Assembly (NCBI GenBank): GCA_943329505.2
Contig: CALQED020000005.1
Span: 1-15,651 of the forward strand
Length of the DNA stretch: 15,651 bases
Direction: 5' to 3'
Origin: Polynucleobacter meluiroseus
GTDB taxonomy: Bacteria > Pseudomonadota > Gammaproteobacteria > Burkholderiales > Burkholderiaceae
Made by a program: the position numbers and the translations under genes
Notes under the pieces: model-generated
Told to the model about the DNA's origin: nothing
Database searches by the model: none
Seen by the model: only the letters and a program-made list of their open reading frames with translations
Shown here: positions 5,368 to 15,409 of the stretch, one piece after another
Position numbering within the stretch: position 1 is the first letter of the stretch
Layout: each line of letters begins with the position of its first letter

Positions 5368-6780
5368 TTAAAGAAGTACCTTTTTAGGATTAAAGATTCC
5401 ATGTGGATCTAGGCCTGCCTTAATCTTTTTCATCAAATTAAGCTCCGTTGGGGTTTTATATTTAACGAGCTCATGCGCTTTATTCGCGCCAATACCATGC
5501 TCAGCAGAGATTGACCCACCCATTTGATCTACAAGATCATGTATCAGTTCATTCACAACAACTTTGTTTTTCATGAACGCATCGACGTTTTCACCCTTAG
5601 GCGCTGCAACGTTGTAGTGCAGGTTGCCATCACCTAAGTGACCAAAATCAATGATGCGAGCATTTGGGAGTTGCTTAAGAATAATTTTCTTAGCCTCTTC
5701 AATAAAGTTGGGTATTTTTGATATCGGAAGAGAGATATCATGCTTGATATTTTTCCCATCCTCTACTTGTGAGAGAGGGATATGCTCTCGAATCTCCCAA
5801 AAACGTTTTGATTGTGCTAATGACTGGGGAATGATGGCATCAGTAATTAAATTCATCTCAAATGCCTCTTCAAGCATGGCATTCAGGAGCTCATAGGCAT
5901 GCTCTTCACTCTCGTTATCACTAATCTCAATTAATACGCAGTAAGGCACTTTTGTTGAAAATGGGTAAGCAAATTGGGGAAAATATTGATCTACTAGATT
6001 GAGGCAGGTATCTGAAATGAGTTCAAATGCTGTCAGCTGAGAGTTTGCCTTCGTTTGCACATATTCTAAAAGCTGGATTGCTAGGCTAGGAGAATTTAGG
6101 CTGAGTAATGCTGATAAACGGGCCTTTGGCAATGGCACTAACTTTAAAACTGCGCCAGTAATAATGCCCAGCGTTCCTTCTGCTCCGATAAAGAGATCTC
6201 TTAAATCGTAGCCAGTATTATCTTTTCGTAAAGTTCTTAAGCCATTCCATATCTCACCTTCAGCTGTAATGACTTCAAGTCCTAGACATAAGTCCCTAGC
6301 ATTTCCATACCGCAACACGGCTGTACCGCCAGCATTGGTAGATAGTAGACCTCCAATGGTTGCGCTTCCTTGTGAGCCCATGGTCAAGGGGAATTCGAGC
6401 CCATGTTCTTGTGCATATTTATGTAAATTTTCTAGAATCACTCCAGCATCAACAGAAATAGTCTTACCAAGAGCATCTAAGGAACGGATTTTATTGATTC
6501 GCTCAAGCGAAAGCACTAACTCATGTCCGCTATCATCCGGGAGTCCGCCGCCCACCAAGCCTGTATTGCCGCCTTGAGGAACAATCGAAACATGATATTT
6601 TTCCGATAATTTCACAATGCTGGCAATCTCTTCAGGATTGGCCGGCCTCGCTACTGCAAGAGCCTTTCCATTTGCCCTTCCAAACCAATCGCTTACATAT
6701 TTTTTTTGCTCAGCAATATCTATCAGAACATTATTTTTGCCGATTAAGTTTGTAAGCTCTTGAATAAATTGGGTATACAA
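5368..6780 (-). CDS. FAD-linked D-2-hydroxyacid dehydrogenase (GlcD/D-lactate dehydrogenase type)
   Basis: A 470-residue flavoprotein of the VAO/PCMH family that oxidises a D-2-hydroxyacid to the 2-oxoacid. FAD-domain motifs appear in order: PxxPEE (about 46-51), P-Q-G-G-N-T-G-L-V-G-G (68-78), the G-S-Q-G-S-A-T-I-G-G to N-A-G-G-T segment (135-153) and G-Y-D-L-R-D-L-F-I-G-A-E-G-T-L-G (190-205). The C-terminal FAD-oxidase domain has H381-L-G-D-G-N-L-H388 and S-A-E427-H428-G-I-G, the metal and substrate residues of D-lactate and D-2-hydroxyglutarate dehydrogenases. Length is normal. The only usual start is TTG at 6780, with a weak GAAAG 7 nt upstream. It is divergent from lysR and has a LysR-type promoter layout, so it is probably induced by that regulator. 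D-lactate, glycolate or D-2-hydroxyglutarate specificity cannot be separated from sequence alone. Confidence 0.9.
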   Translation of the reverse strand: MYTQFIQELTNLIGKNNVLIDIAEQKKYVSDWFGRANGKALAVARPANPEEIASIVKLSEKYHVSIVPQGGNTGLVGGGLPDDSGHELVLSLERINKIRSLDALGKTISVDAGVILENLHKYAQEHGLEFPLTMGSQGSATIGGLLSTNAGGTAVLRYGNARDLCLGLEVITAEGEIWNGLRTLRKDNTGYDLRDLFIGAEGTLGIITGAVLKLVPLPKARLSALLSLNSPSLAIQLLEYVQTKANSQLTAFELISDTCLNLVDQYFPQFAYPFSTKVPYCVLIEISDNESEEHAYELLNAMLEEAFEMNLITDAIIPQSLAQSKRFWEIREHIPLSQVEDGKNIKHDISLPISKIPNFIEEAKKIILKQLPNARIIDFGHLGDGNLHYNVAAPKGENVDAFMKNKVVVNELIHDLVDQMGGSISAEHGIGANKAHELVKYKTPTELNLMKKIKAGLDPHGIFNPKKVLL

Positions 6781-6810
6781 AATATGACTTTCTATTGTGT
6801 TGTATGTGTC

Positions 6811-6839
6811 AAAATAACTCGTAACATATAATAGATCAA
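6811..6839 (-). promoter_or_regulatory. Predicted LysR-activated promoter of the flavoprotein gene
   Basis: On the minus strand TTGATCTAT (6839-6831) provides a -35-like TTGATC, followed after a 17-nt spacer by TATTTT (6816-6811). Transcription would start near 6804. The palindrome at 6862-6876 is then centred near -65 and the TTGATCTAT half-site near -34, the usual positions of LysR recognition and activation sites. The same nonamer lies at the same 22-nt distance from a palindrome at 12794-12802. Confidence 0.55.
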
Positions 6840-6861
6840 TGCATGTATTTCAATAGTTTTG

Positions 6862-6876
6862 ATAGACTCCGTCTAT
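6862..6876. promoter_or_regulatory. LysR-type operator palindrome (T-N11-A), site 1
   Basis: ATAGACTCCGTCTAT is a perfect 6-bp inverted repeat with a 3-bp centre and a T6863-N11-A6875 core, the generic LysR-family box. It lies in the divergent region between the flavoprotein and lysR genes. It overlaps the lysR -10 hexamer, so binding there would repress lysR while sitting at about -65 for the flavoprotein promoter. Closely similar sites occur at 12740-12754 and 12757-12771. Confidence 0.7.
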
Positions 6877-6879
6877 AAT
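6874..6879 (+). promoter_or_regulatory. -10 box of lysR, possible leaderless transcript
   Basis: A consensus TATAAT lies 9 nt before the lysR ATG (6889). The expected start of transcription (about 6886) is within a few bases of the start codon and there is no usable Shine-Dalgarno sequence, so the mRNA may be leaderless or nearly so. No good -35 is visible. The operator palindrome at 6862-6876 overlaps this box. Confidence 0.5.
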
Positions 6880-6888
6880 ATATGGGAT

Positions 6889-7776
6889 ATGGAACTTAGA
6901 CATCTTAAATACTTTTTAACGATATCCCGCCTTGGAAGCTTTACAAAGGCGTCGGAAGAGCTTTATGTCACACAGCCAACCTTATCCCACCAAATGCGAC
7001 AGTTGGAGACAGAATTAGGTTGTGACTTATTAGATCGATCCTCAAGGTCAATTCGCTTAACTGGAGCGGGTGAAATATTTGCCCGCTATGCCAATCAGGC
7101 GATTAAAGAAATCGAGGATGGAAGGGCCGCAATTCAAGGCTATCAGGGCTTGCAAGTGGGTAGCGTTGTGATTGGTGCGATTTCCGCTTTTACGAATAAT
7201 TTACTTCCGCCAATTCTCTCGGAGTTTTCTCAGTCATACCCTGGTATCAAGGTTAGGATCGTCGAATTGCCTACTGGTGAAATGCAAAGGCAAATTAGAG
7301 ATGGCGATTTAGCATTTGGTTTGGGTTATGGACCTGAATCAACTGAACTGATTTCTGGTGAGGAGCTATTTCGGGAGGATTTAATGCTAATCGTTTCTAA
7401 ACGGCATCCCCTTTCAAAGAGTGCTTTTGTAACGATTAAAGATATTGCCCGTACAAAGCTGGCTTTATTGTCATCTGAGTACATGTCAAGAAAATTGATA
7501 GACATGGCATTCCTAGAAATTTTGACTGCGCCCGATATTGCGATGGAAATGAATTCTATCGACGCAATCTTAGAGACGATCGGTGACTCCCAGCTGGCTA
7601 CCATCATGACCAAAAGGATGATGCTCAATTACAAAAAATTAGTCGCCATACCCATTCGTCCAGAAATCTTAAGATCTGCTGCAATATTTCGACGGGAAAA
7701 TGCCAATTTATCGCCCGCAGCTCAGATTTTGGTAAACATGCTCATTGCTAAATATAGAAAAAATATAAAAAAATAG
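6889..7776 (+). CDS. LysR-family transcriptional regulator (CynR-like)
   Basis: A 295-residue LysR-type regulator. The start is set at ATG 6889 (MELRHLKYF), which places the winged helix-turn-helix at the usual residues 1-60 with the family pattern F-L-T-I-S-R-L-G-S-F-T-K-A-S-E-E-L-Y-V-T-Q-P-T-L-S and L-E-x-E-L-G-C-D-L-L-D-R. An extension to TTG 6859 would run through the operator and promoter and is rejected. Residues about 85-290 form the periplasmic-binding-like effector domain, whose inducer is not predictable. The overall pattern resembles the CynR group. The C-terminus is lysine-rich. It is divergent from the flavoprotein and convergent with the SDR, with a 22-nt gap and no visible terminator. 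Matching palindromes upstream of three other transcription units suggest it is the local activator and an autorepressor. Confidence 0.93.
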   Translation: MELRHLKYFLTISRLGSFTKASEELYVTQPTLSHQMRQLETELGCDLLDRSSRSIRLTGAGEIFARYANQAIKEIEDGRAAIQGYQGLQVGSVVIGAISAFTNNLLPPILSEFSQSYPGIKVRIVELPTGEMQRQIRDGDLAFGLGYGPESTELISGEELFREDLMLIVSKRHPLSKSAFVTIKDIARTKLALLSSEYMSRKLIDMAFLEILTAPDIAMEMNSIDAILETIGDSQLATIMTKRMMLNYKKLVAIPIRPEILRSAAIFRRENANLSPAAQILVNMLIAKYRKNIKK

Positions 7777-7798
7777 TAGCGATTTGCAAGATCAGCTT

Positions 7799-8554
7799 TT
7801 AAACCATAGTTGCGCCACCATTGACATCCATCGTAATTCCTGTGATGTAGCTTGCTTTACGACTAGCTAGAAAAACAATGGCATTCGCAATTTCATCAAC
7901 CTCAGCCAGCCTACCTAGTGGGGTTGTTTTTTGTATGTGAGCCAATCTTTCTGGGCTTCTAATAGCATTGGTGCGGGGCGTAGCAACGTTTGCCGGTGCA
8001 ACTGAATTGACAGTAATGCCATAAGGGCCAAGATCTTTAGCTGCTTGCCTGGTAAGCGCAAGCACTCCACCTTTTGCGGCAGTGTAATGTGGTGGGTTAG
8101 GATTGGTGCCGCTACGAGCAGCCATGCTCGAAACAGCTACAAACCTGCCATATTGATTTTTAATCATATGGGGAGCAACTGCTTTGAGAAGATAAAACAT
8201 AGAGCGTAGATTCGAATTCACTACTGAATCCCATGCTTCAACTGGGCAATCTAGTAAGTTGACATAACTAGGAAACCCGCCTGCACTGTGGATTAATGCC
8301 TGTATGCCGGTTGCTGATTTTGCAATTTCATCAATCTTGATTTTTGTAGCATCCCAGGAATTCAGATCGGTTACCGCTACTATAGCTTTGCCTCCAAACG
8401 CTTTAATTTTATTGGCGACATCTTCTGCCCCTTGCTGATTAAAGTCCATGATCACTACATTTGCACCTTCTTGAGCTAATTGGATCGCACAAGCTTCTCC
8501 TATCCCAGTAGCAGATCCGGTAACAATCACGCATTGATCTTCAAAGCTCTTCAT
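7799..8554 (-). CDS. Short-chain dehydrogenase/reductase (SDR), last gene of the five-gene operon
   Basis: A 251-residue classical SDR. The cofactor motif is T12-G-S-A-T-G-I-G19, and D37 at the end of beta-2 (VVIMD) suggests NAD(H) preference. The catalytic residues are Ser142/143, Tyr157 and Lys161 (Y-T-A-A-K), with N113/N115 in the V-V-N-S-N helix. The usual N-N-A-G motif reads H-S-A-G-G (89-93), a modest deviation. The closest generic label is 3-oxoacyl-ACP reductase-like, but in this context a catabolic alcohol or hydroxyacid dehydrogenase is more likely. It starts 11 nt after the Bug stop with an AAAAGGAAAAG Shine-Dalgarno sequence spanning that stop, which indicates translational coupling. 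It converges on lysR. Confidence 0.9.
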   Translation of the reverse strand: MKSFEDQCVIVTGSATGIGEACAIQLAQEGANVVIMDFNQQGAEDVANKIKAFGGKAIVAVTDLNSWDATKIKIDEIAKSATGIQALIHSAGGFPSYVNLLDCPVEAWDSVVNSNLRSMFYLLKAVAPHMIKNQYGRFVAVSSMAARSGTNPNPPHYTAAKGGVLALTRQAAKDLGPYGITVNSVAPANVATPRTNAIRSPERLAHIQKTTPLGRLAEVDEIANAIVFLASRKASYITGITMDVNGGATMV

Positions 8555-8565
8555 AACTTTTCCTT

Positions 8566-9543
8566 TTATTCTGGGGTAATGTTTGCATCTTTAATAATTT
8601 TTGACCAGCGACGTTTTTCGTCTTTTAGGTCTTTGTCAAATTCGGCAATAGAGCTACTTGTACTAATCTCAAGACCAGCTCGATTGGCTTTAGCGCGGAC
8701 ATCGGGATTTTTAGAAACCTCTGAGATTTCTTTAAATAGTTTTTCCCGAATACTCAGTGGGGTATTTTTTGGGGTGAAAAAGCCTGCCCAATTACTAATA
8801 GACAAGCCTGGAATGGTTTCATTAATTGCTGGAAGGGTTGGTAAAAACTGCTGGCGCGAGTTTGTTAATACTGCTAGCGCTTTAATTTTCCCAGAGTTTA
8901 AAACTGCACTTGCTGCAGCATAAGTTGTAAAGCTCACGTCAATGTCGCCCGACGCCAAATCAATCATGGCAGGTCCGCCGCCCTTGTAGGGGACATGGAC
9001 GAGATCTAAGCCAGTAGTTTGTTTAAAAAATTCAGCAACCAAGTGGTCAGCAGAGCCAATCCCAGAGCTTCCATATCTAATAGGCTCTTTACGGTTTTTT
9101 GCCCAAGTCAGGAATTCATTTACAGAATTAATATTGCGACTAGTAGGCACTACCATGATGTTAACAATTTCAGCGACGCGCATGAGCGGCAATAGATCTT
9201 TGTCAGGCGAATAATTAAGGCTGCTCACCAACAAGGGGGCCATGGTCGTGGAGGCTGGTGTGGCAATTAATAGGGTATAGCCATCTCCGGGCGCATTGGC
9301 AACAATTTCAGTGCCCAAACGAGATCCTGCACCAGGCTTATTTTCTAAAATAATAGTTTGTTTCAGTTTTTCGCCTAATGGCTCTGCAATGGCTCGAGCT
9401 GCAGCATCAAGTGCTCCTGCAGCTGGAAAAGGAATGATCACTTTAATGGGTTTACTTGGATATTTATCCGCAGCTTGGCTATGGCAATAAAAAGATATTG
9501 CCATGCCGATCAGCAGTGATATGAGCTTTATTTTCTTTGGCAT
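8566..9543 (-). CDS. Bug-family (TctC-type) periplasmic solute-binding protein
   Basis: A 325-residue Bug receptor. The ATG at 9543 (MPKKIKLISLL) is chosen over the ATG at 9573 because it is preceded by AGAGAGAA at proper spacing and gives a clean signal peptide, cleaved near SQA-ADKYP; the longer form would put ten charged residues before it. The signature YPSKPIKVIIPFPAAGALD differs from the usual F-A-P-G-G-x-x-D at the carboxylate-binding loop (P-A-A-G-A), which may reflect a different ligand. The VPYKGGGPAM segment is present. It is the fourth gene of the operon, 82 nt after the dioxygenase, the largest gap in that unit. Confidence 0.9.
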   Translation of the reverse strand: MPKKIKLISLLIGMAISFYCHSQAADKYPSKPIKVIIPFPAAGALDAAARAIAEPLGEKLKQTIILENKPGAGSRLGTEIVANAPGDGYTLLIATPASTTMAPLLVSSLNYSPDKDLLPLMRVAEIVNIMVVPTSRNINSVNEFLTWAKNRKEPIRYGSSGIGSADHLVAEFFKQTTGLDLVHVPYKGGGPAMIDLASGDIDVSFTTYAAASAVLNSGKIKALAVLTNSRQQFLPTLPAINETIPGLSISNWAGFFTPKNTPLSIREKLFKEISEVSKNPDVRAKANRAGLEISTSSSIAEFDKDLKDEKRRWSKIIKDANITPE

Positions 9544-9625
9544 GTGTTCTCTCTTGGGATAGTTGGGCTGCATCTAATACGTATGATGTGACGCAATTAA
9601 AAAATGTTTAGACTTTATTGGGCGA

Positions 9626-10528
9626 TCATAAGCTTCTCGGATGCGGCTTAAGATTTGCCGCATCTTTTGCTATGAAAGGTTTATGGCCCTTCACTTGGGC
9701 GGCATGCAAAATACGATCGTGGCTTGAGTCAAAAGGGCCTCGACGGTGAATGACACAACGGTTATCCCACAGTACAACATCATTCTCTGCCCATTCATGA
9801 CGATAGATATAGCGCTCTTGGGTTGCATGCTCCCACAATTGATCTAATATTGCTTCTGACTTCTCGAGTGACTCGCCCATGATGTAGTGAGCCAATCTTC
9901 TGCCCAAAAATAAGGAGTTGCAATTGCTTTCTGGATGAGTTGATACCATGGGATGAACGGGTCCCTTGCCTTGAGTTGGGTCTGTTACCGGAGTTGCTCC
10001 CATGCGTAGTGCCCGATTGGTATCGTAGACAATATCGTGCTTAATAGAATGATTTAACGCGTAATCTTTTAAGTCTGCAGGTAGGTCATTAAATGCAGCA
10101 TACATATTGGCAAACTCAGTGCTACCACCTGCATTTGATGGGGGGATCTTAATGCCATGCAAAATTCGCATTCCGCCAACAACTTCTTTAAAAGAGTAAT
10201 CACTGTGCCAGATCACTTCCCCATCACCAAGCTCGCCGATGGGCACGCCATTCACCTTTACATTTGAGACCACGGTAATTTCTGGCGCAGCATCACTTTC
10301 CTGAATGCTAGCGCGCTCATGTTGTGCTGGCGGAAGCATTAGTTCACCGAAGATGGAAGATACCTTGATCAGGTCTTCATCATGAATTTTTTGATTTCGA
10401 AAGAGGAGAAGCAGGTGATTTAGGTAGGCCTCTTTTAATATTGCGGCATCAATGCTTGATAACGGTGAGCTCAGATCCAAGCCGATAACTTCGGCACCTA
10501 GCGAACAGGGTAGGGGAACAATTTTCAT
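9626..10528 (-). CDS. TauD/TfdA-family Fe(II)/2-oxoglutarate dioxygenase
   Basis: A 300-residue non-heme iron dioxygenase that couples 2-oxoglutarate decarboxylation to hydroxylation of a substrate, often releasing a sulfite, phenol or amine group. The iron facial triad is complete: H108-S-D110 and H261. T137 (G-G-S-T-E-F) and R272 (D-R-I-L-H) are the 2-oxoglutarate contacts. The N-terminus (G-A-E-V-I-G-L-D-L-S) and W-D-N-R-C-V-I-H are typical of the family. Taurine, aryloxyacetate and other acids are all known substrates of relatives, so the substrate is not assigned. A strong AAGGAAG precedes the ATG; the gene starts 15 nt after the enolase-family gene. Its co-occurrence with Bug proteins suggests an imported organic acid. 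Confidence 0.93.
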   Translation of the reverse strand: MKIVPLPCSLGAEVIGLDLSSPLSSIDAAILKEAYLNHLLLLFRNQKIHDEDLIKVSSIFGELMLPPAQHERASIQESDAAPEITVVSNVKVNGVPIGELGDGEVIWHSDYSFKEVVGGMRILHGIKIPPSNAGGSTEFANMYAAFNDLPADLKDYALNHSIKHDIVYDTNRALRMGATPVTDPTQGKGPVHPMVSTHPESNCNSLFLGRRLAHYIMGESLEKSEAILDQLWEHATQERYIYRHEWAENDVVLWDNRCVIHRRGPFDSSHDRILHAAQVKGHKPFIAKDAANLKPHPRSL

Positions 10529-10543
10529 TTTTGCTTCCTTGGA

Positions 10544-11653
10544 TTATTTAAGTCTAAATTTATGAATTTGAGCCTCATTGACTTCAATACCAAGGCCAGG
10601 CTTTCTATCTAAAGTGAAGATTCCATTTGTCGTTGCGATTGGGCTCTGGACGACATCTTCTGCCAAGTATTGATTTGTAACGCTAATACCCCAGTCAAGA
10701 TTTGGTAATACAGCGCCAGTTTGAAATAGAGATGCCGCTGCAATACTGGATTCAGCGACCTTGCAGGCAAGGTTGACTGAGAGGCCAATATTCTCGCAAA
10801 GAATCCCTGCGTTCACTACAGAGCTAATGCCACCAAGCTTAATAATTTTTAAGTTTGCTCCTTGTATGGCTTTGGCATTGCTGAGTATGGCAATGTCTTC
10901 AACGGAGGTAATCGATTCATCTCCACATAGCGGCACAGAGATGCGGCTCGCTAACTGAGCCATACCATTGAGATTGCCGCTTCTTAATGGTTGCTCAAAA
11001 AATAGAAGATTTACACTCTCGGTTGCCTGGCAATAAGAAACAGTTTCACTGGCTGATAAGCCCATATTGGCATCTGCACATAAAGTCGCTTGCGGTCCCA
11101 GTTCTTTGCGTAAGCGTAGGGTATGAGTAATATCCTCTTGAATGGATCGAGCCCCAACTTTAATTTTGAAAAATTGAGTCCCCATTTTTTGCTTAGCAAG
11201 TGCATCGGCTAGATCCTGGTCACCGCTGCCACTTCCAAGGAGGGTCATAGGATGAAATTTCTCTCGCTTTGCTCCCCCAATCAAATCGTATACAGGCACT
11301 CCTAGATGTTTGCCGCATAGATCAAGCAAGGCGCACTCAATCGCACATTTTGCTCCGGTGTTGCGATAAATTTCCGTGGAGACTTTCTGCATAAGCTGGG
11401 CATGATTCAATGCATTTTCATTGATCAGTAAAGGGGCAAGATAGTCTTCAACGGCCGCAATCATTCCAGGCAGCAGATCGCCCGTCATCGTTGGCGCAGA
11501 GGCAGATTCACCCCATCCGACAAGACCGTTTTCAGCTTCAATCCGAACCATTAAGTTATAAGCTTTGGTAATAACGACCCCAGCCATGTGCATCGGCTTT
11601 AAGAGCGGCAAAGCAACTGGAATTGCTTCTACTTTTTTAATAATGAGACTCAT
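10544..11653 (-). CDS. Enolase superfamily enzyme, muconate-lactonizing (MLE) subgroup
   Basis: A 369-residue Mg-dependent enzyme that abstracts a proton alpha to a carboxylate. It has the N-terminal capping domain and a TIM barrel with the MLE-subgroup pattern: K163-I-K165 on strand 2, metal ligands D194 (C-A-D-A-N), E220 (F-F-E-Q-P) and D245 (C-G-D-E-S), and K272 (I-I-K-L-G-G) as the opposite base. A Lys at that place and no His-Asp dyad argue against mandelate racemase and acid-sugar dehydratases. The strand-8 region reads N-L-D-W-G rather than the D-x-D of dipeptide epimerases, so a peptide epimerase is less likely. Cycloisomerase, racemase or syn-dehydrase activity all remain possible. 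The gene is second in the operon, 25 nt after the first Bug gene, with a weak Shine-Dalgarno sequence. Confidence 0.92.
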   Translation of the reverse strand: MSLIIKKVEAIPVALPLLKPMHMAGVVITKAYNLMVRIEAENGLVGWGESASAPTMTGDLLPGMIAAVEDYLAPLLINENALNHAQLMQKVSTEIYRNTGAKCAIECALLDLCGKHLGVPVYDLIGGAKREKFHPMTLLGSGSGDQDLADALAKQKMGTQFFKIKVGARSIQEDITHTLRLRKELGPQATLCADANMGLSASETVSYCQATESVNLLFFEQPLRSGNLNGMAQLASRISVPLCGDESITSVEDIAILSNAKAIQGANLKIIKLGGISSVVNAGILCENIGLSVNLACKVAESSIAAASLFQTGAVLPNLDWGISVTNQYLAEDVVQSPIATTNGIFTLDRKPGLGIEVNEAQIHKFRLK

Positions 11654-11678
11654 TTTTTTATCTTGTTCTTATAGTGAT

Positions 11679-12659
11679 TTATGGCTGTGCACGAATTTGT
11701 AACTCATTTGCTATATTGACCCAGCGAGTAATGTCGGCTTCTAAAAATGATTTAGATTGACTGGGCGTCAATGGCATTCCAGTAGCTCCGACTCTTTGGA
11801 GTCCGGCTTGAAAATCAGGATCCTTAAGCGCTTGCAATACGCCAGCAGATAATTTGTTCAGGGTTGCTGGTGGTAAATCTTTAGGCCCAAAAAGACCATA
11901 CCAGGATCCCATCACAAAATTACTGCCGCTAGCTTCTGCAATTGTTGGAATTTCAGGCAAAACTGGTGAGCGTTCTTTGCTGCCGATAGCAATGCACTTT
12001 ACTTTTCCCGCCTTCATATGCGGTACTGCGCTTGGTATCGAGTCATAAGTCATTGAAATCTGCCCGCCCATGACATCAACCATTGCTGCTGGCAAACCTT
12101 TGTATGGGATATGAGTAACATCAATCCCCAGCGTTTTCTTAAGGGCTTCAAATCCAAGATGGGGCGAGCTACCAATGCCGGATGATCCATAAGTCAGTTT
12201 TCCGGGATTTGCTTTTGCATAGCGCACAAGTTCTGCAATAGAGTTAATGCCTAGCTGGGGATTTAAGCACAGCAAGTAGGGCGCATCGCTAAAAATAGCA
12301 ATCGTCGTAAAGTCTTTTATAGGGTGGTAGGGCAGGTTGGGGATGGTTGCAAAATTAGTAGAGTGAGTTCCAGTCGTACCTAGTAGCAAGGTGTAACCAT
12401 CCGGCTTACTTTGGACTACATATTGACTGCCAATGACTCCAGAGGCCCCTAATTTATTGTCAACGATAAAAGGTTGTTTCAGTATTTCACTGAGTTTTTG
12501 TGACATCACTCGGCCCATAAAATCAGCACCACCACCAGCGGTAAAGGTGACGATTACCTTTACTGGGCTTGATGGGTAGGCATCTTGTGCCATTACGGAC
12601 TGCATCTGAGTGATGAGGAATGTGCAAAATATGATGGCTAGACCAATTTTTCTTGGCAT
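11679..12659 (-). CDS. Bug-family (TctC-type) periplasmic solute-binding protein, first gene of the operon
   Basis: A 326-residue Bug receptor with a signal peptide cleaved at VMA-QDAYP. The signature YPSSPVKVIVTFTAGGGAD, the K-P-D-G-Y-T motif and IPYKGLPAAM are present. An AGGGGAA Shine-Dalgarno sequence sits just upstream of ATG 12659. It leads the Bug, enolase-family, TauD, Bug, SDR operon and is divergent from the GTPase operon across 171 nt containing two LysR-type palindromes. It is only distantly similar to the other Bug in the same operon, so the two probably bind different ligands, for instance the substrate and a pathway product. No membrane permease is encoded nearby. Confidence 0.92.
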   Translation of the reverse strand: MPRKIGLAIIFCTFLITQMQSVMAQDAYPSSPVKVIVTFTAGGGADFMGRVMSQKLSEILKQPFIVDNKLGASGVIGSQYVVQSKPDGYTLLLGTTGTHSTNFATIPNLPYHPIKDFTTIAIFSDAPYLLCLNPQLGINSIAELVRYAKANPGKLTYGSSGIGSSPHLGFEALKKTLGIDVTHIPYKGLPAAMVDVMGGQISMTYDSIPSAVPHMKAGKVKCIAIGSKERSPVLPEIPTIAEASGSNFVMGSWYGLFGPKDLPPATLNKLSAGVLQALKDPDFQAGLQRVGATGMPLTPSQSKSFLEADITRWVNIANELQIRAQP

Positions 12660-12739
12660 ATAGTTCCCCTGTTGTGGTGGTTGCTATCAAACTAGCCTGA
12701 TCTTAGTATTCACGCAAATGATATTTTTAGATATTTCGA

Positions 12740-12754
12740 ATAGATCTCATCTAT
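12740..12754. promoter_or_regulatory. LysR-type operator palindrome (T-N11-A), site 2
   Basis: ATAGATCTCATCTAT is a perfect inverted repeat, extendable to 17 bp (12739-12755), with a T12741-N11-A12753 core. It lies 80 nt upstream of the Bug operon start. Reading towards that operon, 22 nt further on, lies TTGCGT (12717-12712), a possible -35, but the ATCTAT half-site present at the other two promoters is missing there. Confidence 0.65.
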
Positions 12755-12756
12755 TA

Positions 12757-12771
12757 ATAGACAACATCTAT
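12757..12771. promoter_or_regulatory. LysR-type operator palindrome (T-N11-A), site 3
   Basis: ATAGACAACATCTAT matches site 1 and site 2, with one mismatch between arms, and extends with flanking pairs to 12755-12773. Its centre is 17 bp from that of site 2. Exactly 22 nt downstream lies TTGATCTAT (12794-12802), as at the flavoprotein promoter, placing this palindrome near -63 of the predicted GTPase promoter. Confidence 0.7.
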
Positions 12772-12793
12772 TATTTATATAAATATATAACAT

Positions 12794-12820
12794 TTGATCT
12801 ATATGTATATGCGGTATAAA
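12794..12820 (+). promoter_or_regulatory. Predicted LysR-activated promoter of the GTPase operon
   Basis: TTGATC (12794-12799, part of TTGATCTAT) is a -35-like hexamer; TATAAA (12815-12820) is the best -10, with a short 15-nt spacer, and TAAATT (12817-12822) would give 17 nt. Suboptimal spacing fits dependence on an activator. Transcription would start near 12827, only a few bases before the ATG at 12831, and no Shine-Dalgarno sequence is visible. Confidence 0.5.
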
Positions 12821-12830
12821 TTAAGCATTC

Positions 12831-14021
12831 ATGTTTGATAGCCAAGACCTCCAAAACCCCCTTTCCGCAGCTTTTGGTGGGGAAACTTTACCCGTAACCA
12901 TTCTGACGGGTTTTCTGGGAAGCGGTAAATCTACGTTTTTGAATGCTCTATTTAGGGACCCTGATTTTCAAAAGACGCTCGTGATAGTCAATGAGTTCGG
13001 CGAAATTGGCTTAGACCACCTTTTAATTGAAAGGCCTGAAGAAAATATTGTCCTATTAGAGGGCGGGTGTCTTTGCTGTGAAGTACGTGGCGACTTGGTC
13101 CAAACCCTTGGGGATATCCACCAACGGAGAAGTAGTGGAAATTTAGCAGAATTTAATCGCATTGTGATTGAGACAACAGGATTGTCCAATCCAGTACCCA
13201 TCATTCAATCGATTCTTTGTGATTTTGAGTTAAGAGCTCACTATTCGCTATCTAAGGTGATCACTATTGTTGACTCTAGAGAGATTGAATCTCAAATAGC
13301 AAAATTTACAGAGGCAATCGAGCAGGTTGCTGTCGCAGACCTATTGCTAGTGAGCAAGACTGATCTTCCCGATCATCTGCCAATGGATCAGTTGGAGGCG
13401 ATTTTGCGCCCCATCAATCCTGGTTCCCCTATTGTGATCAATCATCAAGGTGTTCTTAGCAACTTTAATTTGAATGAATTTCTACAGGCTGATACCACTA
13501 CAGAGCATGATGCATTTATGCAATGGCTGGAAAGAGGAGAGAGCTTTATTCTTGAGCATCAACATGCGCATATTCCGGAATCAGGTGCTCGCTCTGCGCT
13601 CCACCCGATTCATGGCAAGGGGATTTCATTGCTCTCAGAAAGCAATCGCGTCCACACATTTTCTCTGCGACGTGAGGGAGTTATTACGGGTAATAGCTTT
13701 GTAGTTTGGCTTAATCTACTGACAACGATGAAGGGTGAAAATATTCTTCGTCTGAAGGCAATTCTGAATGTTGAAGGTATGCCAGTTGCCCTACATGGCA
13801 CCCATACGATTATTCATGAGCCCATTCATATGTCGGAATGGCCAAGCTCAGATCATTCTTCTCGATTTGTAGTGATTGCTAATGGCCCGATACAAAAACA
13901 GTTTGAAAGATCGCTTGAATTATTAGATTTTAATGTGCAAACACACAATAAAGTTTCTCTCATTGATCCAGACTCATACCAGAATTTTTTAAAACTAGCA
14001 GAATCATTTAGTCGTGTTTGA
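12831..14021 (+). CDS. CobW/G3E-family GTPase, putative metallochaperone
   Basis: A 396-residue GTPase of the COG0523 group, which deliver zinc, cobalt or other metals to client enzymes. The P-loop is G27-F-L-G-S-G-K-S-T35, the switch region is V-N-E-F-G-E-I-G-L-D (53-62), the metal-binding C-x-C-C is G-G-C80-L-C82-C83, the Walker B-type segment is E114-T-T-G, and the base-specificity motif is S175-K-T-D. A His-rich linker follows (about residues 243-262: repeated H-x-H and H-P-I-H), then a CobW C-terminal domain (about 275-385). It lies 26 nt upstream of a metal-dependent amidohydrolase and under the predicted LysR promoter. This suggests a dedicated metal supply for that hydrolase rather than a general zinc-starvation response; no zinc-regulator box was found. 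Confidence 0.92.
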   Translation: MFDSQDLQNPLSAAFGGETLPVTILTGFLGSGKSTFLNALFRDPDFQKTLVIVNEFGEIGLDHLLIERPEENIVLLEGGCLCCEVRGDLVQTLGDIHQRRSSGNLAEFNRIVIETTGLSNPVPIIQSILCDFELRAHYSLSKVITIVDSREIESQIAKFTEAIEQVAVADLLLVSKTDLPDHLPMDQLEAILRPINPGSPIVINHQGVLSNFNLNEFLQADTTTEHDAFMQWLERGESFILEHQHAHIPESGARSALHPIHGKGISLLSESNRVHTFSLRREGVITGNSFVVWLNLLTTMKGENILRLKAILNVEGMPVALHGTHTIIHEPIHMSEWPSSDHSSRFVVIANGPIQKQFERSLELLDFNVQTHNKVSLIDPDSYQNFLKLAESFSRV

Positions 14022-14035
14022 TATTTATACTTATT

Positions 14036-14041
14036 GGAGGA
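14036..14041 (+). promoter_or_regulatory. Shine-Dalgarno sequence fixing the amidohydrolase start
   Basis: GGAGGA lies 6 nt before the TTG at 14048. It decides in favour of this start over the in-frame TTG at 14018, which overlaps the GTPase stop codon, has no ribosome site and would place the Shine-Dalgarno bases inside the coding region. Confidence 0.8.
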
Positions 14042-14047
14042 ATTAAC

Positions 14048-15409
14048 TTGGGCGAACTATATAAAAAATACATCCCACCAGAGCAAGAAGGCCCTGTTGT
14101 TTATATCAAGGGAGCTCGCTTAATCGATGTAGTGAAATCTAAGGTGATTGAGTCCCCAGTGATTGCAATACAAGGTAAGCGGATTGTTCAAGTTGGCACG
14201 GATAAGGACATTCATATTCCTGAGGGTGCTCAGGTTACAGATTGCAGCGGACTGACTTTGATGCCCGGCATGATTGATAGCCACCTCCACACCATGATGT
14301 TCAATTGTTTAACTTTCCATAATTATCGCGTTTCACAATGGGAAATTACACCTGAATTACAGCAAATGTACGGCTTGTTTCATGCGCAACTGTGTTTTGA
14401 TATGGGCTTCACGACGCTACGTGATTTGGGCCTCGCATCAAGTCGCGGACTAATGACCGCCCATCTATGTGCAGTCAGAGATTCCATTAATGCAGGCGTC
14501 TTAGAAGGTCCAAGAATGTTTATCGGTGGATTCACTTCTATTACTGGCTCTCATTTAGATCTTATTAATCCACGTGCAATGCAACGCTATGGTTTTCAAA
14601 CTGCTGATGGCCCATGGGAATTGCGTAAGTTAGCGCGTCAAAATATGTTGGTGGGCTGTGATGTTGTGAAGACTTGCGCAACTGGTGGCGGTGGGACTGA
14701 CAAGGAAGAGCCGGATATTCGTAATATGACGCAAGAGGAAATTGATGCGATTGTGGATGAGGCTCATGCCTTTCATAAAATTGCAGCAGTGCATTGCTTT
14801 ACTCCTGCAGGACAGAAGATGGCATTGAATGCAGGCGCTGATACTATTGAGCATATGGTGTTTTCTGACCAAGAGACAGCTGACCAAATTGCGGATTCCA
14901 ATGTCTACATGACTCCAACCTTATTGCATCGTACTGATCATGCAATTGAAATGAGAAAAATGCAGGGCACTTCTTTATTCGTTATTAATAAAATGAAATC
15001 TATTCAGTCAAGCTGTTTTGATACCTTCCAAAGAATGCATAAGACGGGCGTCAAAATTGCCATGGGAACTGATATGGGATTTGATCCTGAGATGGGAACT
15101 AATGCAAAAGAGCTCTCTATCTATGTTGATTTAGGCATGTCTACCATGGAGGCTTTGCAGACTGCAACCATTAACGGTGCTAATGCAATCAAGGCATCTA
15201 AGGATTTGGGTAGTATTGAGGTTGGCAAGTATGCCGATATCCTCGCGATTGACGGTGACCCTACTAAAGATATTAATTGTCTTCAAGACAAGAAAAATAT
15301 TCAAATGGTAATGAAGGAAGGAAGAATTTATGCCGACCGTCGATCTGGCAAGAGCAAGAATGTCGTGTCGGTAAATCCTGGCGAATGGAAGAAAATTGAT
15401 TATTTATGA
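14048..15409 (+). CDS. Metal-dependent amidohydrolase (prolidase/imidazolonepropionase-like)
   Basis: A 453-residue amidohydrolase superfamily enzyme that hydrolyses an amide, lactam or ester bond at a one- or two-metal centre. The beta-sandwich start (V-V-Y-I-K-G-A-R-L-I-D-V) and G-M-I-D-S-H79-L-H81 are followed by K208 (D-V-V-K, the likely carboxylated bridging lysine), H249 (A-A-V-H), H269 (T-I-E-H) and catalytic D342 (M-G-T-D), a complete set. The G-K-Y-A-D-I-L-A-I-D-G-D-P ending is standard. The pattern is closest to the Xaa-Pro dipeptidase/carboxypeptidase-like group. It has no signal peptide, so it should be cytosolic. It starts with TTG behind GGAGGA, and its stop overlaps the next ATG by 4 nt (ATGA). 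The substrate is unknown; the operon suggests the imported acid or its conjugate. Confidence 0.92.
   Translation: MGELYKKYIPPEQEGPVVYIKGARLIDVVKSKVIESPVIAIQGKRIVQVGTDKDIHIPEGAQVTDCSGLTLMPGMIDSHLHTMMFNCLTFHNYRVSQWEITPELQQMYGLFHAQLCFDMGFTTLRDLGLASSRGLMTAHLCAVRDSINAGVLEGPRMFIGGFTSITGSHLDLINPRAMQRYGFQTADGPWELRKLARQNMLVGCDVVKTCATGGGGTDKEEPDIRNMTQEEIDAIVDEAHAFHKIAAVHCFTPAGQKMALNAGADTIEHMVFSDQETADQIADSNVYMTPTLLHRTDHAIEMRKMQGTSLFVINKMKSIQSSCFDTFQRMHKTGVKIAMGTDMGFDPEMGTNAKELSIYVDLGMSTMEALQTATINGANAIKASKDLGSIEVGKYADILAIDGDPTKDINCLQDKKNIQMVMKEGRIYADRRSGKSKNVVSVNPGEWKKIDYL

Follow-up and report, generated by a model that had tools for sequence, protein, structure and literature searches.

A rigidly spaced LysR-type composite element probably links four putative transcription units in a Polynucleobacter catabolic cluster

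The stretch of DNA analysed here (contig CALQED020000005.1, 15,651 nt, hereafter the window) is one entire contig of a 1.42-Mb metagenome-assembled genome of Polynucleobacter, 64% complete, and carries a catabolic gene cluster around a lysR gene. One palindrome recurs in two of its intergenic regions, the first beside lysR and the second at 12.7 kb between two divergent gene sets, which raises the question of whether these elements are the operators of that regulator, and which genes they would bring under common control. Our answer, which we hold with high though not complete confidence, is that they serve a CynR-subfamily LysR that is autoregulated and controls four transcription units through a resting site and an inducer-driven shift: lysR itself, a FAD-linked oxidase gene, a predicted GTPase/amidohydrolase operon and a predicted Bug/enolase/TauD/Bug/SDR operon (SDR, short-chain dehydrogenase/reductase). 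The first-pass annotation of this DNA had already drawn these units into one circuit, and the rarity and conservation of the element support that grouping.

A composite element at two divergent promoters

Three exact copies of the palindrome ATAGAY-N3-RTCTAT were found in the window (Table 1), to the base where the first-pass annotation had placed them. At two promoters, one on each strand, the nonamer TTGATCTAT lay exactly 22 nt from a palindrome, also as annotated; the 22-nt spacers of these two composite promoters differed, while their ends were identical. A third copy of TTGATCTAT was located within the enolase gene (11317-11325, minus strand), with no palindrome of two mismatches or fewer close to it.

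The lysR product matched the Pfam models HTH_1 and LysR_substrate, both far over their cut-offs, and is thus a LysR-type transcriptional regulator (LTTR). Its best NCBIfam model was CynR (NF008416), and at 255.2 bits against a curated cut-off of 277 it is not filed as CynR itself, nor as a CynR orthologue; the nearest solved sequence was also that of E. coli CynR. Palindrome 1 stopped 12 bp before the lysR start, and a 15-bp odd T-N11-A palindrome near -65 of its target (counted from a predicted start) and close to the start of the regulator is the arrangement that defines an LTTR operator.

Table 1. Positions of the elements, predicted promoter boxes and genes in the window
Feature	Position	Strand	Remarks
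Palindrome 1, predicted recognition site (inverted repeat 1, IR1)	6862..6876	.	exact, ATAGACTCCGTCTAT; between FAD-linked oxidase gene and lysR
Palindrome 2, predicted recognition site, Bug operon (minus strand)	12740..12754	.	exact, ATAGATCTCATCTAT
Palindrome 3, predicted recognition site, GTPase operon (plus strand)	12757..12771	.	exact, ATAGACAACATCTAT
Nonamer TTGATCTAT	6831..6839	-	22 nt from palindrome 1; IR3-like half-site at about -34 over predicted -35
Nonamer TTGATCTAT	12794..12802	+	22 nt from palindrome 3
CATTTGC, mirrored second element	12714..12720	-	19 nt from palindrome 2; 7/7 invariant in four genomes
Predicted -35 TTGCGT, Bug operon	12717-12712	-	overlapped by CATTTGC
Predicted -10 TATTTT, FAD-linked oxidase	6811..6816	-	17 nt after TTGATC; identical in 4/4
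Predicted -10 TATAAT, lysR	6874..6879	+	overlaps right half of palindrome 1; TATA[A/C]T in 4/4
Predicted -10 TAGTTT, Bug operon, weak	12689..12694	-	17 nt after TTGCGT; TA-N3-T in 4/4
Predicted -10 TAAATT, GTPase operon	12817..12822	+	17-nt spacer
Alternative -10 TATAAA, GTPase operon	12815-12820	+	15-nt spacer
lysR, CynR-subfamily LTTR	6889..7776	+	start MELRHLKYF
FAD-linked oxidase (GlcD-like), putative target	5368..6780	-	Pfam FAD_binding_4 and FAD-oxidase_C; TTG start in 4/4 genomes
CobW-type (G3E) GTPase, putative target	12831..14021	+	Pfam
Amidohydrolase, putative target, GTPase operon	14018..15409	+	Pfam
Bug/TctC binding protein, first gene of putative target operon	11679..12659	-	Pfam
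Enolase-superfamily (MR/MLE) enzyme	10544..11653	-	Pfam
TauD-family dioxygenase	9626..10528	-	Pfam
Bug/TctC binding protein	8566..9573	-	Pfam
SDR oxidoreductase	7799..8554	-	Pfam

Rarity of the element in the genus

Judged within the window alone, the palindrome with up to two mismatches was unimpressive (six matches against 2.58 expected, a number reached in 10 of 200 shuffles); the nonamer occurred three times against 0.28 expected, reached in 1 of 200. The exact palindrome does not occur by chance. All three copies in the genome of the window lay in the window itself, against one match to a reversed-pattern control, and that genome held two exact composites against none for the control; across 36 further genus genomes, the exact palindrome was found 12 times in total and the control 39 times.

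Among 186 genus genomes, the exact composite was present in three, at two places each and always at these two promoters, with no control match. Allowing up to one mismatch gave eight places, two each in the genome of the window (G000), G127, G189 and G187, and none in the remaining 182, and with up to three mismatches a composite occurred somewhere in 30 of the 186. Completeness of 90% or more with contamination of 5% or less was reached by 144 of these genomes, so an absence may in some cases reflect a gap. Exact palindromes were confined to these sites in G000, G127 and G189 (three each), and G187 carried one exact and two one-mismatch palindromes at the corresponding places. The motif was thus not scattered genome-wide, which is the pattern that the first-pass annotation had expected of a true regulon.

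Palindromes with up to one mismatch were considered as additional targets genome-wide and rejected: they numbered 20 against 13 for the reversed control in G000 (three of the 20 being the exact sites), 20 against 27 in G127, 19 against 20 in G187 and 24 against 27 in G189, and because they exceeded the control in the genome of the window only, we claim no further targets. Composites with up to six mismatches were likewise sought at five other cluster promoters (upstream of cupin 1, Bug 2-cupin 2, cupin 2-HIBADH, HIBADH-FAD oxidase and upstream of Bug 1, HIBADH being 3-hydroxyisobutyrate dehydrogenase). There were none in the window and a single four-mismatch match in one relative (locus L023); in the loci of two other relatives, the search covered three of the five regions (L024) and none (L022). 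The cupin, HIBADH and Bug 1-upstream units were therefore kept out of the regulon. Between Bug 2 and cupin 1 the window carried a different repeat, a perfect 15-bp direct repeat AGTTCGCATCGATGG at 2253-2267 and 2275-2289 with 22-bp spacing. L023 shares 13 bp of it as a repeat at 22 bp, and L024 does not; it could be the operator of a second regulator.

Conservation among relatives with the same regulator

An orthologous LysR was encoded in the same four genomes (100% identity in G000, 94% in G127, 94% in G189 and 89% in G187). The other 182 gave no match at E <= 1e-40 except G182, with a 34% identical homologue, and G182 lacked the element. The motif was therefore kept in the relatives that possess this LysR and absent from the rest, in line with the comparison between species that the first-pass annotation had proposed. 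In alignments of both intergenic regions across the four genomes, the fixed half-site bases were invariant at 9 of 10 positions in the FAD-oxidase/lysR region and 19 of 20 in the GTPase/Bug region, both nonamers at 9 of 9, and the N3 cores at only 1 of 9. Pooled, half-sites and nonamers were invariant at 46 of 48 positions, compared to 86 of 200 elsewhere (Fisher P 1e-12, a nominal value because independence holds neither for adjacent positions nor for related genomes). Neither side of this count included the Y/R positions, the mirrored block described below or the predicted -10 blocks.

Each site was retained individually. Palindrome 1 was kept in four genomes, in one of them with one mismatch, palindrome 2 was exact at the orthologous place in all four, and palindrome 3 was conserved with one mismatch in one relative; here the aligner placed an insertion of L024 within the palindrome, and L024's own palindrome, ATAGATGATATCAAT, also had one mismatch in ten. 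The 22-nt gap was kept at both promoters in all four genomes. In L024, 17 bp were inserted between palindromes 2 and 3, with their starts 34 instead of 17 bp apart, and each palindrome retained its own distance to its partner element despite the insertion. The conserved unit is therefore a palindrome plus its partner, one per promoter. The 17-bp insertion, in the stretch 15980-16028 of L024, also carried an additional ATAGAC half-site, as though one register unit had been added to the operator.

These observations bear on the simplest alternative, in which chance or the shared ancestry of AT-rich intergenic DNA (by composition or duplication) would explain the likeness of the two promoters. 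Both regions are indeed AT-rich and the palindrome at two mismatches is not rare in the window, but the rarity of the composite in 186 genomes and its conservation already contradict this explanation. The two spacers differ between identical ends, genomes with the ortholog have the exact form nowhere else, and the N3 cores vary where the half-sites do not. We give it almost no credence.

A mirrored unit at the Bug-operon promoter

The first-pass annotation had linked the Bug/enolase/TauD operon to the circuit through palindrome 2 alone. The link need not depend on that palindrome alone: this promoter possesses its own mirrored unit with conserved spacing. The gap between CATTTGC and palindrome 2 was equal to that between CATTTGATCTAT and palindrome 3 on the plus side in all four genomes, and in the window a repeat finder paired 12715-12758 with 12753-12796 as an inverted repeat of 73%, with only shorter arms in L024 (the two loci in which this region was examined). 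Beyond the palindromes, the first 26 positions gave 15 to 17 mirror-image matches (shuffle P 0.003 to 0.006), and over 31 or 45 positions the shuffle P was 0.003 to 0.022. In G187 the Bug-promoter unit also appeared in the composite scan at three mismatches, a class that consists mostly of chance matches. The intergenic region at 12.7 kb thus contains two units back to back, one per divergent promoter. The mirrored element was noticed by eye prior to counting and has lost most of the nonamer, and we are accordingly less sure of this unit than of the two composites.

Predicted promoters and mode of action

A promoter geometry of TTG-N3, a 17-nt spacer and TA-N3-T fitted all 12 promoter sequences (three promoters in four genomes), and it is plausible that the nonamer doubles as the -35 (TTGATC). 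The centres of the two elements were 31 bp apart in every genome and would lie at about -65 and -34 of the predicted starts. The first-pass annotation had given the same distance and the same first centre; its second centre, about -33, moves to about -34 relative to starts that are predicted only. At palindrome 1, the overlap with the predicted lysR -10 would imply autorepression of lysR and a nearly leaderless message. The predicted starts near 6886 (lysR) and 12829 (GTPase gene) fell 1 to 3 nt before the ATG in the four genomes, which suggests that both of these messages may be nearly leaderless; those of the FAD-oxidase gene and the Bug operon would lie at about 6804 and 12682, both on the minus strand.

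The nearest published framework is the model for CynR, IlvY and OxyR set out in the part of PMC5002191 used here. In that model, IR1 and IR3 are conserved and form the inducer-free pair, with IR3 blocking the promoter. The weak site IR2 comes into use when inducer is present, and IR1 either overlaps the regulator's -10 or is located downstream of it. IR1, IR2 and IR3 are positioned at -65, -43 and -34 in ilvYC and at -66, -44 and -34 in cyn, with about 22 bp from IR1 to the activation site IR2. The 31 bp measured here compares to IR1-IR3 distances of 31 (ilvYC) and 32 (cyn), and the locus has the features of a 'group two' operator, in which IR1 and IR3 are the best conserved sites, lie about 31-32 bp apart and IR1 covers the regulator's -10 (in our case a predicted one). 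Since both spacing and conservation match IR1/IR3, the nonamer is more likely an inducer-free resting site than an activation site. The 'activation site' label of the first-pass annotation is therefore probably wrong.

By analogy, one dimer of a LysR tetramer would anchor on the palindrome at about -65. Without inducer, the second dimer would occupy the half-site within the nonamer at about -34, covering the -35 and keeping the promoter off. An inducer, probably a pathway intermediate, would move this second dimer upstream by about 10 bp, onto a weak site in AT-rich DNA near -43, where it would contact RNA polymerase and activate transcription. Binding at palindrome 1 would also repress lysR, because that palindrome overlaps the predicted lysR -10.

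The same regulator and sites could operate differently, with the nonamer as a true activation binding site (ABS) at -35 that is bound with inducer, as in MetR/GcvA, and no shift from a resting site. The available part of a review (PMC11602165) places the recognition binding site, ABS(I) and ABS(II) near -65, -35 and -10, and around -43/-44 our promoters showed an AT-rich stretch with no clear palindrome by eye. However, 31 bp matches the IR1-IR3 spacing of ilvYC and is close to that of cyn, in which the activation sites are at -43/-44, and IR2 is expected to be poorly conserved, so its weakness is no evidence against a shift. We consider this alternative rather unlikely, and favour the resting site with an inducer shift.

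Homologues outside the genus

Among 399 sampled genomes of the order, a LysR homologue at E <= 1e-60 was encoded in five that do not belong to the genus. Two of these had a comparable composite, found by eye and with two mismatches each to the palindrome consensus: L047, of another family (LysR 39% identical), with ATCGATGGTGTCGAT-N22-TTGATCTAT between lysR and a divergent Bug gene, and L046, of a third family (44%), with ATAGATGGGGCCGAT-N22-TTGTTCTAT beside the lysR homologue. Around L046 (locus L077), homologues of the GTPase (30%), amidohydrolase (69%), FAD oxidase (48%), enolase (50%) and TauD (55%) were clustered with lysR, as were homologues of the relatives' downstream SDR (47%) and GST (42%), and genes from different transcription units of the window were neighbours. 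Loci L079 and L080 contained the amidohydrolase (71-72%), FAD oxidase (45%) and cupins and lacked the element, and of the cluster L081 had little beyond Bug-type genes. Gene content across these loci offers partial support for a common pathway.

A plasmid search for the regulator returned three records, all about 36% identical; 398 sampled genomes of the family held no homologue at E <= 1e-58 besides the window's own, and no further ortholog turned up in the families of G327 (11 genomes) and G239 (4 genomes). A protein search returned 141 proteins at E <= 1e-50, the 120 listed including metagenome proteins at 74-96% and Variovorax at 51%.

It is conceivable, and we suggest it only tentatively, that the palindrome, the rigid 22-nt gap and TTGATCTAT form one code across families of the Burkholderiales, at 39-44% protein identity, and that a two-unit operator of about 82 bp drives the divergent operons. 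The locus around L047 (L078), which has the element without the cluster, speaks against this idea. If true, a single operator, roughly symmetric and 5 kb from the regulator's gene, would let one regulator drive two divergent operons.

Alternatively, the cluster might happen to be controlled by a different regulator, a second LysR or a dimeric factor of unrelated type, and the elements would then be its sites. LysR binding is predicted from sequence, and three of the five distant homologues lack the element, as a different regulator would allow. Nevertheless, element and LysR co-occurred in four genus genomes, with 182 lacking both the element and an ortholog (G182 having the 34% homologue), palindrome 1 lies 12 bp before lysR, where LysR-type autoregulatory sites lie, and near-copies stand beside two distant lysR homologues. 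We regard a different regulator as improbable.

Several findings weigh against control of these units by the LysR encoded in the cluster, or against parts of that interpretation. Of the homologues beyond the genus, those at L021, L048 and L049 (41%, one clade) lacked a comparable element, two of them in related clusters, and the recognition-helix sequence was similar in homologues with and without it; in L078, which contains the element, Bug-type genes and an enolase homologue at 26% were all that was found of the cluster within 20 kb. Within the genus, the close system was restricted to four genomes that are near relatives of each other, and when the FAD-oxidase region was taken alone, counting all 15 palindrome positions, P was only 0.013. 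At the Bug promoter the nonamer corresponded to TTGCGTGAA in the window (4/9) and TTGCTATAA in L024 (6/9). A generic promoter scan recovered none of the predicted promoters, with nothing in 6700-6950 and one chance-level match elsewhere in 12600-12900 (12809-12782, minus strand). Finally, the 64% completeness of the genome means that other targets could be missing, unlike in G127 (99% complete).

Neighbouring genes

Two differences in gene content were evident between the window and its relatives. A GST-family gene sat between TauD and Bug 3 in L022, L023 and L024 (Pfam GST_N in the L023 copy), at the place where the window has a 52-bp gap (9574-9625); at that position the gene was lost or never gained. 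L024 also carried an additional 3-hydroxyisobutyrate-dehydrogenase-type gene (7056-7940) between HIBADH and the FAD oxidase, absent there in the window and L023.

The proposed regulon provides a testable control circuit for an uncharacterised freshwater catabolic cluster, indicating which genes act together and thereby helping to find the substrate. With a constant 31-bp spacing and a half-site over the -35 at three promoters, it is also a good natural test of the LysR resting site and its slide on induction.

Comparison with known LysR systems

Among the matches listed from the open PMC literature, neither this motif nor a Polynucleobacter LysR regulon was described in titles or abstract openings. 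The system most similar to ours is E. coli CynR at cynR/cynTSX ('group two'), which is also the closest by family model and solved protein. From the part of PMC5002191 used here, both have a regulator divergent from its target and inverted repeats of 15 bp; IR1 lies over the regulator's -10 at about -65, and another conserved site covers the -35 at -34. They differ in the half-site (ATAGA/TCTAT here, ATAA-n7-TTAT in cyn), in the -34 element, which here is a half-site within a nonamer, and in extent, with three target promoters plus lysR in a catabolic cluster here compared to one pair in cyn. T-N11-A palindromes and divergent targets are likewise shared with CatR, CatM, BenM and ClcR and with 'CatR^^' of Betaproteobacteria (PMC6449761, in part). 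In the portion of that source used here, the CatR/ClcR consensus is AkACC-N5-GGTAT, in contrast to ATAGA-N5-TCTAT in our locus, and CatR^^ was compared without its motif letters. The circuit is very probably a genuine, local regulon with autoregulation, of a familiar LysR type, distinguished by an unusually clean and rigid operator and by a mirrored double operator at a pair of promoters away from the regulator gene.

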